DNA from: a virus
Direction: 5' to 3' (one strand)
Virus record (IMG/VR): IMGVR_UViG_3300030451_003628
Location: 1 to 20,293 of that record
DNA length: 20,293 bases
Below the pieces are notes generated by a model. That model did no database searches. It was not told the DNA's origin and saw nothing but the letters and a program-made list of their open reading frames with translations. Each line of letters begins with the position of its first letter. Within the stretch, counting starts at the first letter, position 1. Positions 3,653 to 20,293 of this stretch are shown here, in pieces. The position numbers were made by a program, and so were the translations under genes.

Positions 3653-4567
3653 TTACCTTTTAATATGTTTAGCGTATTCTTGAACCGGTACATTCAAACG
3701 ACGCGCCATTTCAACTTCGCTTTTGGTAAGTCTAACTTGTCGTTTGCGTCCAGAGCCTTCAGACCTTACAGCCGGGGCAACAGTTTGTTGCATCTTCTGT
3801 TTCGGTTTGACTTCCCCACCGTCTTCAAACTTATGAGGAAACTCAACTCTGATACGTTTATCTATCTCATCATAATACATTGAATCAGCAGGATCAAACC
3901 CTTCTTCTTCAATTAATTTGCGATGAATGTTAAAAGCAGCCAACGTCATGGTTTCATCTTCACCAAACCACTTGTTTTTTTCTGCCCAATCTTGCGCTGC
4001 AGGATCAGGATCAGGTGCTGCTTGTTGAGCTGGTTGTTGATATTGTTGTTGAAAGTCTTGAACTGAAACGGGGGTTTGAGGAGCTTCCTCAACCTTCATT
4101 TTAGTATTGACTAATTTACTTTCTTCAACCGTAATCTTATCTAAGATTTCTTGGGCTTTCGTTACTTTGTCCCAATCTTGTTCTTGATAAGCTGACTTTA
4201 AAACCGCATTTGCTTGAGCTCTTTGCGACTTTAATCTGTTCTCTGCTTCAGAATAATAATTTTGATGAGCCTCTGAATTAGAGGTCTTTAATTGATTATT
4301 TTCTTCTTGCAAAGATTTTGCGTATTCAAATGCTGATTGAGCAGCTCGTTCCTGCTCGCGCATTTTTTTGGTAAGCGTAGCAATCCGCTTTTGAACGTTC
4401 TTAGAATAATTTTCTAATTCGTCCTTGTCTTCGTCCTTTGCTTGTTCCTCTTCAGAAACATCTTCTACAGGCGCCGATTCATCTGCCTCTTCTTCAGGCA
4501 TTTCAAGCTCGACAACCTCACCATCTTCTACTTGTTCTTCTACTAAGTTTTTTTCTTCTTCTTGCAT
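3653..4567 (-). CDS. Probable capsid scaffolding protein
   Basis: This 304-residue protein shows the scaffold signature. The first 50 residues are extremely acidic (VEELEMPEEEADESAPVED-like), residues about 55-155 are a long predicted coiled coil (KRIATLTKKMREQERAAQSA, then further charged helix), and a Gln/Pro-rich linker follows at about 165-190. The C-terminal region contains DWAEKNKWFGEDETMTLAAF and RIRVEFPHKFEDG, a block found in scaffold proteins of several marine podovirus-like phages. The C-terminus is very basic (GSGRKRQVRLTKSEV), as expected for a capsid-binding tail. It sits between the portal and capsid genes, the usual scaffold slot. GAGG precedes the ATG. The scaffold assignment rests on architecture, region similarity recalled from memory, and position. 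Confidence 0.72.
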   Translation of the reverse strand: MQEEEKNLVEEQVEDGEVVELEMPEEEADESAPVEDVSEEEQAKDEDKDELENYSKNVQKRIATLTKKMREQERAAQSAFEYAKSLQEENNQLKTSNSEAHQNYYSEAENRLKSQRAQANAVLKSAYQEQDWDKVTKAQEILDKITVEESKLVNTKMKVEEAPQTPVSVQDFQQQYQQPAQQAAPDPDPAAQDWAEKNKWFGEDETMTLAAFNIHRKLIEEEGFDPADSMYYDEIDKRIRVEFPHKFEDGGEVKPKQKMQQTVAPAVRSEGSGRKRQVRLTKSEVEMARRLNVPVQEYAKHIKR

Positions 4568-15171: not shown

Positions 15172-15202
15172 TTGACATTTAGTAAACAATCCTTATTATT
15201 AA
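15172..15202 (+). promoter_or_regulatory. Candidate rightward promoter of the small-gene operon
   Basis: A perfect TTGACA (15172-15177) is followed 16-19 bases later by overlapping TTATTA/TATTAA hexamers (15194-15202), a fair -10 region. The first gene's AAGGAG and ATG follow at about 30 bases. This is the only consensus -35 upstream of the plus-strand genes. Confidence 0.5.
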
Positions 15203-15231: not shown

Positions 15232-15663
15232 ATGGCAAATCAAATAAGAAAATTTGAGTTAGATGCTATTGCTAATGAGATAGAGTCTAAACTTACTGAA
15301 AAGGCTAAACAAGTCCAATCCGACTTAGAAAAGCAATCCGACTATAAAAATATTCTGGAACTTGTAAAAATTATTAACCGCTTACAAGATCAAGAAAAGG
15401 ATATTGAAAAAAGAATATCTATTCGTGCAAAAGAGTTAAAAGAGTATCTTGAAACTTACAATCAAAATCTGAATCAAAATTTTAGTTTAGAGCATAACAG
15501 CTATAACTCTTATATGCATGAAAAAGATTCTGTTTCATGGAATACAGAAACTTGGAAACTAAGAGATCAAGTTAATAACAAACTTGCTATCGCTCTTATG
15601 TCACCTGACGCTAGAAATAGAATGTCTGAGGTTATCCAAGAAGTTGTTGATAGTCTTAGCTAA
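15232..15663 (+). CDS. Hypothetical helical protein, first gene of the rightward operon, 143 aa
   Basis: Unrecognised. Residues 8-80 are a long charged helix or coiled coil (IANEIESKLTEKAKQVQSDL, then VKIINRLQDQEKDIEKRISI), with an Asn/Gln-rich linker at about 78-95. A C-terminal helical part (RDQVNNKLAIALMSPDARNR) follows. No DNA-binding motif is clear. A strong AAGGAG precedes the ATG. Being first after the promoter, it is likely an early and well expressed protein. The stop codon falls at the edge of the structured stretch that follows. Confidence 0.75.
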   Translation: MANQIRKFELDAIANEIESKLTEKAKQVQSDLEKQSDYKNILELVKIINRLQDQEKDIEKRISIRAKELKEYLETYNQNLNQNFSLEHNSYNSYMHEKDSVSWNTETWKLRDQVNNKLAIALMSPDARNRMSEVIQEVVDSLS

Positions 15664-15865
15664 CCAAACATGCAAGGTGCTGATAGAAGAGGATACAGCT
15701 TAAAGTATAAATCCTGTTTGGTTGAATGGTGGTACAACAAGCCGTCACTGAGTAGCCAACGGCACAATCATATGAACAACGCCTTGCATAAAATCCTAAT
15801 CAGAACAATCGAAAGGTTAGGTGTAGATGTTGGTAGTTTACTACAACAAAAAACTACCACTTTTA
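15662..15865 (+). ncRNA. Candidate structured RNA with a possible pseudoknot
   Basis: The only real gap in the rightward operon. Five pairings can be drawn: AACCAAAC (15662-15669) with GTTTGGTT (15716-15723); ATGCAAGGTG (15670-15679) with CGCCTTGCAT (15780-15789), ten pairs with one G-U; AGGAT (15690-15694) with ATCCT (15711-15715); GCCGT (15741-15745) with ACGGC (15759-15763); and CCTAATC (15795-15801) with GGTTAGG (15815-15821). The first two interleave, so they form a pseudoknot or are alternative folds. A terminator-like hairpin ends the stretch. A 68-codon frame lies across it but has no ribosome site and an atypical, Trp-, Ser- and His-rich composition. No known RNA family is recognised; tRNA and tmRNA do not fit. 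Confidence 0.5.
15831..15865 (+). terminator. Terminator-like hairpin before the 15880 gene
   Basis: TGGTAGTTT (15831-15839) pairs perfectly with AAACTACCA (15851-15859) around an 11-base loop, followed by CTTTTAAT. The stem is moderate in GC and the T-run short, so read-through into the genes beyond is likely. It lies just before the AGGAG of the next gene and could act as an attenuator or as the 3' end of the candidate RNA. Confidence 0.45.
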
Positions 15866-15879
15866 ATAGGAGATAAAAA

Positions 15880-16095
15880 ATGAAAATCTATATAGTTAGT
15901 GACGAAGACGAAAATCTACATACAATGTTTTTTGGCAACAAGAAAAAAGCTATCAAATATTACAACGAACTCAAAGAAACAGAACCTGCTGAATTAAAAA
16001 CCATTGATGTAGAGCCAAACAGAAAAGGTATTTTGTTTGCTATGAAAATGGCATGTACTTATGTTGGTTCATCTTGCGGGGGTACAGAGTTATGA
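15880..16095 (+). CDS. Hypothetical small protein, 71 aa
   Basis: Unrecognised. It starts with a beta strand and an acidic turn (MKIYIVSDEDENLHTMFFGN), then a Lys-rich helix (KKKAIKYYNELKETEPAEL) and a strand, ending with a small Cys/Gly-rich tail. The fold order beta-alpha-beta is common in small phage proteins that modulate host enzymes, but nothing specific is visible. GGAG lies seven bases before the ATG. Its stop overlaps the next ATG (ATGA). Confidence 0.68.
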   Translation: MKIYIVSDEDENLHTMFFGNKKKAIKYYNELKETEPAELKTIDVEPNRKGILFAMKMACTYVGSSCGGTEL

Positions 16096-20032: not shown

Positions 20033-20293
20033 AGTCCTTGCTAACCTTTTCTTTTTTTTCAGATTTTAAAATTTGATCCAAAGATATTTTTGACGCAGTT
20101 TTGTCCTCAATAACTGCTCCCGACTTATTTTCTAACTCCCGACTTCCGATCAATTGCGCTAAGCGTTTTTCTACTTCGTCCCGACTCATCTGATCTATCT
20201 TGCCATGCAGAACTTCCCGGCGGTCAACGATAAGGCCGCCAAGTTTCAATAACAAATTCTGAGCGTTAATGGCGGCAGTAAAGTTATCTTGTC
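20031..20293 (-). CDS. terS: Probable terminase small subunit, C-terminal part
   Basis: The frame is open to the right edge, so at least 87 codons are visible and the N-terminal DNA-binding part is missing. The reading NFTAAINAQNLLLKLGGLIV, then DRREVLHGKIDQMSRDEVEK, matches the C-terminal block of phage small terminases, where the oligomerisation helix is followed by L-x-VDR(K/R)EV-x(2)-G-x-ID-x-MSR(E/D)EV. TerS recognises the packaging site and loads the large subunit. The rest is a Lys/Glu-rich tail. Three TCCCGAC words lie within the gene. It is separated from terL by over 10 kb. Confidence 0.62.
   Translation of the reverse strand, partial: QDNFTAAINAQNLLLKLGGLIVDRREVLHGKIDQMSRDEVEKRLAQLIGSRELENKSGAVIEDKTASKISLDQILKSEKKEKVSKD
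20118..20185 (+). repeat. TCCCGAC copies inside the terminase small subunit gene
   Basis: Exact TCCCGAC at 20118-20124, 20137-20143 and 20179-20185, with TTCCGAT at 20144-20150. All share orientation with the intergenic cluster at 13562-13610. Packaging sites often lie in or near terS, so a recognition role is possible, though the copies also encode protein. Confidence 0.45.

Follow-up and report, generated by a model that had tools for sequence, protein, structure and literature searches.

A Recurring Structured RNA Element and a Separate Pseudoknot Module at Gene Junctions of Marine Phages

The Operon and Its Intercistronic Gap

The window, by which we mean the whole stretch of DNA analyzed, is an IMG/VR virus record of 20,293 bases. 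Its rightward operon of small genes begins with g1 and has a sigma-70-like promoter ahead of it (Table 1); the count of promoter-like sites in the operon region is at chance level. The g1 stop at 15663 and the next start at 15880 leave a gap of 216 bases, and this gap, along with every piece that an earlier sequence-only reading had named in it, was found in place. The features assigned to it, including a domain called E and an H-type pseudoknot called PK, are collected in Table 1. Probable homologs of g1 adjoin E elsewhere (g1 followed by E in L325, E followed by g1 in L046), at a weak 20–34% identity.

The terminase of the window is 58–63% identical to those of 023Pt_psg01, Phage DSL-LC04, and the Pelagibacter phages HTVC027P and HTVC023P. 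The closest terminases are those of HTVC023P-type pelagiphages and their kin, and we infer a SAR11-like host. One contig (L002) has a terminase 100% identical to that of the window, yet its flanking genes differ from those of the window, which means that these phages are mosaic. Repeats of CCCGAC, dense in places and often intergenic, were seen in the window (20100–20190), in L093 (3290–3345), and in L022 (5430–5600).

Table 1. Features of the gap and its surroundings (positions are those of the window).
Feature	Position	Strand	Remarks
Sigma-70-like promoter	15172–15199	+	TTGACA-16-TATTAT, 11/12, ahead of operon
Upstream gene g1	15232–15663	+	143 aa; first gene of rightward small-gene operon, operon start 15232
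68-codon open frame	15670–15876	+	ATG to TAA; rejected as gene
E domain	15670–15789	+	closed by helix b; P1, 4-bp pseudoknot, P2, variable P3, invariant single strands
P1, 5' strand	15670–15678	+	AUGCAAGGU (helix b of the sequence-only reading)
Pseudoknot, 5' strand	15679–15682	+	GCUG; 4/4 pairs covary across relatives
Purine-rich single strand	15683–15689	+	AUAGAAG, consensus GGAAAAG; conserved
P2, 5' strand	15690–15694	+	AGGAU
Pseudoknot, 3' strand	15696–15699	+	CAGC
Conserved strand	15700–15710	+	UUAAAGUAUAA; UUAAA invariant in alignments, but belonged to search pattern
P2, 3' strand	15711–15715	+	AUCCU
P3, 5' strand	15720–15724	+	GGUUG; also outer stem of inserted module B
Module B	15725–15764	+	within P3 loop; UGGU, then hairpin
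Module B hairpin	15741–15745 / 15759–15763	+	GCCGU / ACGGC; loop CACUGAGUAGCCA at 15746–15758
P3, 3' strand	15765–15769	+	CAAUC
Linker	15770–15780	+	AUAUGAACAAC; conserved
P1, 3' strand	15781–15789	+	GCCUUGCAU; invariant U-G and G-C closing pairs at inner end
Linker hairpin	15795–15821	+	CCUAAUC / GGUUAGG; sequence of window, not seen in relatives
PK	15822–15858	+	H-type pseudoknot; separate widespread module
PK, S1	15822–15826 / 15841–15845	+	UGUAG / CUACA
PK, S2	15832–15838 / 15852–15858	+	GGUAGUU / AACUACC
U-tract	15861–15864	+	UUUU directly after PK
Shine-Dalgarno and start codon	15868–15882	+	AGGAGA; next gene 15880–16095

Coding Potential and Known RNA Families

That the gap is a 68-codon protein gene, a reading for which one frame open from ATG to TAA can be cited, is extremely improbable. 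The codon score of the frame falls below those of all 41 genes of the window, its GC content by codon position is flat (0.37, 0.40, 0.40), no Shine-Dalgarno sequence stands ahead of it, and searches returned neither a protein family nor a tblastn relative. The gene is refuted by stops in the equivalent frame in 27 of 30 E elements, a result that also leaves the sequence-only reading unrefuted, since it had named relatives that keep this frame, with synonymous changes breaking the helices, as evidence against a structured RNA.

The same reading had suggested a structured RNA outside any family known to it, and Rfam 15 bears this out, with no family for E or PK and all scores in the window below the gathering threshold. 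Rfam is also silent on E in L297 and on 12 loci carrying module B. The best weak match is to freshwater-2 RNA (RF02980, cis-regulatory) at 15807–15882 of the window, with 16.6 bits against a threshold of 49.9 (E-value 2.9) and resting on the A-rich Shine-Dalgarno region; freshwater-2 is like the gap in having small hairpins directly before the Shine-Dalgarno sequence and unlike it in that its model contains no pseudoknot. The manA, wcaG, and PhotoRC-II RNAs are structured RNAs of marine phages that lie mostly in the 5' regions of genes (PMC2864571); all are in Rfam, and none matches these loci. A tmRNA in the window was considered and rejected, there being no tRNA-like domain, tag, or CCA and no hit from ARAGORN or Rfam, and an apparent tag-like reading (GCC AAC GGC...) was dropped. 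In openly available papers we found no description of the E, PK, or B motifs.

The E Domain and Its Relatives

Two strong interleaved helices had been proposed for the gap, helix a (AACCAAAC at 15662–15669 with GTTTGGTT at 15716–15723, extendable to 9 bp) and helix b (ATGCAAGGTG at 15670–15679 with CGCCTTGCAT at 15780–15789, 10 bp with one G-U). Both are present, but alone they do not go beyond chance: among 400 Markov shuffles of 15662–15865, 235 hold a helix of at least 8 bp, 22 one of at least 10 bp, and 59 an interleaved pair in which both helices reach 8 bp. The MFE z-score for 15640–15880 is −0.95. We regard the anatomy alone as statistically weak, and the significance as coming from conservation in relatives. 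The check for compensatory changes proposed for both long helices gave a divided answer, with helix b covarying and helix a not conserved. Helix a was rejected as a conserved part because its partner AACCAAAC is missing in the nearest relative, L113, and it also clashes with the conserved P3 (GGUUG/CAAUC in the window, GGUUG/CAACC in L113), so that neither a pseudoknot of the two helices nor a switch between them is supported; GTTTGGTT is retained in L113 because it is part of the GUUU linker and P3. The real pseudoknot pairing of the E domain in the gap is GCUG/CAGC, which joins the strand after P1 to the base of the P2 loop, and the P1 closing helix of the window has the invariant inner G-C and U-G pairs that mark the E module.

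When the sequences upstream of PK copies were compared, 15687–15785 of the window matched L113 with 79% identity over 109 nt (E-value 6e-22), the hairpin GCCGU/ACGGC being changed there to GCAGU/ACUGC. The closing helix and pseudoknot of E were recognized by reading the flanks of module B loci, and the window's pseudoknot is replaced by AUGC/GCAU in L113 and L046, GUGU/GCAC in L032, GUCC/GGAC in L231, and UAGC/GCUA in L235. E is common to at least about 30 marine phage sites. An initial E descriptor gave mostly chance sites and was then tightened, after which 6.2 Mb of natural sequence (fetched loci that are enriched for E, having been chosen partly for likeness) yielded 35 sites, vs. 0 in 25 Mb of shuffled window. 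A further pattern scan of viral sequence added at least some E members among the matches listed; most of its raw matches were chance occurrences in coding sequence and were discarded.

Across 17 aligned E cores, from sites picked by a pattern and a pairing descriptor that partly imposed the pairing of P1 (first 5–6 bp), the pseudoknot, and P2 (first 4 bp), 97.2% of cells are paired compared with 34–41% for slid structures, and two-sided changes occur in 13 of the 17 core pairs, a score that 0 of 500 shuffles reach. An absence of covariation had been put forward as a second outcome that would count against a structured RNA, and the alignment holds the opposite. The pseudoknot is 100% paired in the 17 sequences, with every one of its 4 pairs covarying. 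The pairing of P3, of the fifth P2 pair, and of the outer P1 pairs was imposed by neither search pattern nor descriptor, and P3 has two-sided changes in 5 of 5 pairs, with 83% of cells paired in 21 natural sequences.

A covariance model (R1) of 21 natural E sequences, from which the window was left out, matches the window at 15671–15788 with 68.3 bits (E-value 2.8e-14), its sole match in the window, and matches 14 of the 26 virus records tested. It is this model, together with the descriptor counts against shuffled sequence, that makes the structure of the gap significant by way of conservation. On these comparisons E is a new, strongly covarying structured RNA, which we propose as a family, as we do for PK, and it holds about 25 invariant bases, many of them unpaired. 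PK comes after E in the window, L113, L194, L325, L341, and L353. One leader in L351 (10551–10784, minus strand) contains two tandem E elements, of subtypes UUAAAGUAUAAA and UUAAAUCUAU.

Such an RNA could be a self-cleaving ribozyme, cutting the polycistronic mRNA of the phage at its gene junctions; the size, the pseudoknot, the conserved core, the tolerant P3 insertion site, and the intercistronic place would fit, as would the tandem copies in L351. We consider this unlikely, given that no Rfam ribozyme matches and the alignment names no cleavage site.

Among cultured and reference phages, R1 finds no E in HTVC027P, HTVC023P, 023Pt_psg01, DSL-LC04, or Melnitz, and blastn and tblastn searches for the element or its neighbors in named phages gave nothing convincing. 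Two E/B patterns had no exact match in bacterial species genomes. Pelagibacter phage HTVC115P (host HTCC7211) gave a single weak R1 match (18.4 bits, E-value 0.065), and inspection of 2743–2861 of MN698247.1 reveals all E helices: P1 UUGUGGU/GCCACAA, a pseudoknot UAGG/CCUA followed by UUAAA, P2 CAGGAA/UUCCUG, and P3 CCCAAUG/CAUUGUGGG. This probable copy of E sits between gp07 and gp08, shortly before GGAGG. In HTVC103P, HTVC104P, and HTVC134P, strong long hairpins with T-runs before the primase are ordinary terminators without E features, and they stand where several of the E-bearing phages have E.

Modules B, D, and F

The 17-mer GTCACTGAGTAGCCAAC occurs in at least 18 stretches of viral contigs, 17 of which are module B. 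Its stems covary (the outer ones read GGUUG/CAAUC, GGUUG/CAACC, CCAGU/ACUGG, UUUUG/CAAAA, AGGUG/CACCU, and others), and a candidate UGGU/GCCA pairing inside the module is invariant on both sides. Two more modules were observed alongside these. Module D, which is noncoding and recurs, has the form GTAGTTAGG...AAAAGTAAATGAGAACTAAACCACCATGCACTAACTAC, is closed by the helix GTAGTTAG/CTAACTAC, and lies upstream of PK, E, or B (L093 3374–3475, L220, L174, L198, and L231 12560–12665). Module F (GGTTGCACC...GACTA...TAGTC...GAATGCAC...CC) lies ahead of module B in L243 (3900–4080), L237 (about 4130–4190), and L245, and has no Rfam match.

The PK Module

The stem at 15831–15859 had been called terminator-like; a 9-bp stem exists there, and it is really S2 of the H-type pseudoknot PK. 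As a simple terminator S2 was rejected, since no terminator-like site of the window passes a standard terminator scan, and PK, which has a U-tract, departs from an intrinsic terminator, whose hairpin would be GC-rich with a short loop, in its A/U-rich S2 and its loop of more than 10 bases.

A blastn comparison with phages having related terminases matched the stretch before the next gene in L046 (E-value 2e-7), and a scan for gene g5 yielded L093 and L094, where PK stands directly before another gene. S1 differs among these copies (UGUAG/CUACA in the window, UGUAGCAG/CUGCUACA in L046, AGGCAG/CUGCUU in L093), with GGUAG/CUACC as S2, and the substitutions preserve the H-type pseudoknot. A PK pattern scan of viral sequence returned at least 120 stretches. 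The pairing of S1 lay outside the search pattern. S1 reaches at least 5 bp, with 5 bp in the window, in 48 of 97 distinct matches, whereas in 300 loop swaps between matches this count averages 20 and never exceeds 30. S2 variants turned up unasked as GGCAG/CUGCC (L325, L341) and GCUAGUU/AACUAGC (L210); elsewhere the scan imposed GGUAG.

Copies of PK precede Shine-Dalgarno sequences and tRNA-Glu genes, permuted phage tmRNAs carry PK at their 3' end, and in OM43 phage Melnitz it stands ahead of the T4-type late promoter motif TATAAATA. In large phage tRNA clusters it lies six bases 5' of a tRNA-Glu gene (L133 1685–1705, L147 1238–1260, L173 2032–2054, and L187 3840–3862). A 34-codon “hypothetical protein” of Melnitz (MZ577095.1 136522–136626; L381 831–935) overlaps the PK before TATAAATA and ibpA, and this annotation may be a misannotated noncoding stretch. 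Permuted tmRNAs were seen in L116, L124, L172, L179, L196, L213, L225, and L226. The pseudoknot that follows the tag on the 3' side of the permuted tmRNA (alpha RF01849, beta RF01850; L116, L124, L225) has the architecture of PK, with a shared layout of S1, U-rich loop, GGUAGN, S1', A-rich stretch, and NCUACC, so that PK could derive from the tmRNA pseudoknot or the reverse.

The operator of phage T4 gene 32 is an H-type pseudoknot that precedes a ribosome-binding region rich in A/U and free of structure. PK is like it in layout alone, and unlike it PK precedes many unrelated genes rather than a gene for a single-stranded DNA-binding protein.

The placements of PK at tmRNA 3' ends, beside tRNA genes, and between many unrelated genes, together with the occurrence of modules in tandem, would also fit a role without regulation, in which the modules guard 3' or 5' ends from exonucleases or serve as cis antitermination signals. 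This account is possible, and we hold it to be the less probable outcome, as the conservation of unpaired bases in E exceeds what a pure roadblock needs.

Genomic Placement and Proposed Role

Comparison at the level of sequence supports the fold of PK and establishes the fold of E, the conservation of the single strands of E, the noncoding character of the gap, the sense orientation, and the tight placement. Where the next gene is callable, E is in sense orientation to it in 28 of 29 cases, the gene calls in metagenome contigs being simple ORF calls. It commonly starts 1–16 nt past the upstream stop and ends 14–33 nt ahead of the next start; alternatively, it sits in a leader after a divergent gene. 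The gene that follows is a primase-helicase in L335, L286, L288, and L315; L325 and L113 have a DUF932 gene there, and elsewhere it is g1-like or a small unknown gene. The recurrence of the same E before unrelated genes speaks for a general effect on mRNA.

The fixed position of E, after a stop codon and ahead of the following Shine-Dalgarno sequence, likewise speaks for action in cis. The sequence-only reading had offered a host-directed small RNA, which would act in trans and for which the roughly 200 nt of noncoding sequence with its own folded 3' end could be cited. We found no positive evidence for it: no promoter of its own is seen in the gap, and in many phages E starts only a few bases from the upstream stop and ends at the next Shine-Dalgarno region, which makes such an RNA very unlikely.

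Runs of U follow E within 9 nt at 6 of 24 sites (1.1 expected) and PK within 11 nt at 31 of 107 (5.9 expected). Most E and PK sites are without a U-tract, so termination is not the whole story, and a plain terminator would not need the invariant bases of E. The reading that we prefer, with a probability of about one half, is that the gap is a cis-acting intercistronic element of polycistronic phage mRNA, acting through attenuation or control of mRNA ends. It would consist of two independent folded modules, E with B in its P3 loop and PK. Folding would take place after the upstream ribosome has departed, in mRNA that is either still growing or complete, and the folded RNA would govern the amount of downstream message that is produced or persists. 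Either RNA polymerase may be slowed or partly terminated at the U-tract often found after the folds, or the folds may shield the newly made end of the mRNA. That so many unpaired bases of E are invariant suggests binding of a protein or a small molecule, which at this point is a guess.

A more specific form of small-molecule binding would be a new ligand-sensing riboswitch, in which E is a putative aptamer and the following PK or Shine-Dalgarno region an expression platform. The compact pseudoknotted fold with its many invariant unpaired bases 5' of the Shine-Dalgarno sequence, the order of E then PK in six loci (the window included), and the tandem E elements in L351 agree with this, and a reported reliance of SAR11 hosts on riboswitches (PMC9004378) also counts in its favor. 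We nevertheless think it rather unlikely. The genes downstream of E share no pathway, PK is widespread without E, and none of the alternative folds that would mask the Shine-Dalgarno sequence is shared by all subtypes, in which P2' reads UCCU, UCCA, or ACCA; sequestration of the Shine-Dalgarno sequence by P2' fits the UCCU subtype only and was rejected.

More broadly, but still tentatively and short of even odds, E may be a new ligand-binding or catalytic RNA that controls or processes early and replication messages at gene junctions and is freely combined with B, D, F, and PK. In its most general form, the conclusion that we draw from the conserved folds and their placement is that this recurring marine-phage element most likely controls the RNA of adjoining genes.

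Implications for Marine Phages

To our knowledge, almost nothing is known of gene regulation in pelagiphages and their kin. One study examined pelagimyophages for riboswitches without finding any (PMC7029224), and a glutamine riboswitch has been reported in OM43 phage Melnitz (PMC9004378). The probable copy of E in HTVC115P, a phage cultured on Candidatus Pelagibacter HTCC7211, makes the element open to experimental test. If the proposed role is true, it would mean that marine phages have a layer of gene control based on RNA, with modules that are swapped and repeated in the gaps between genes.
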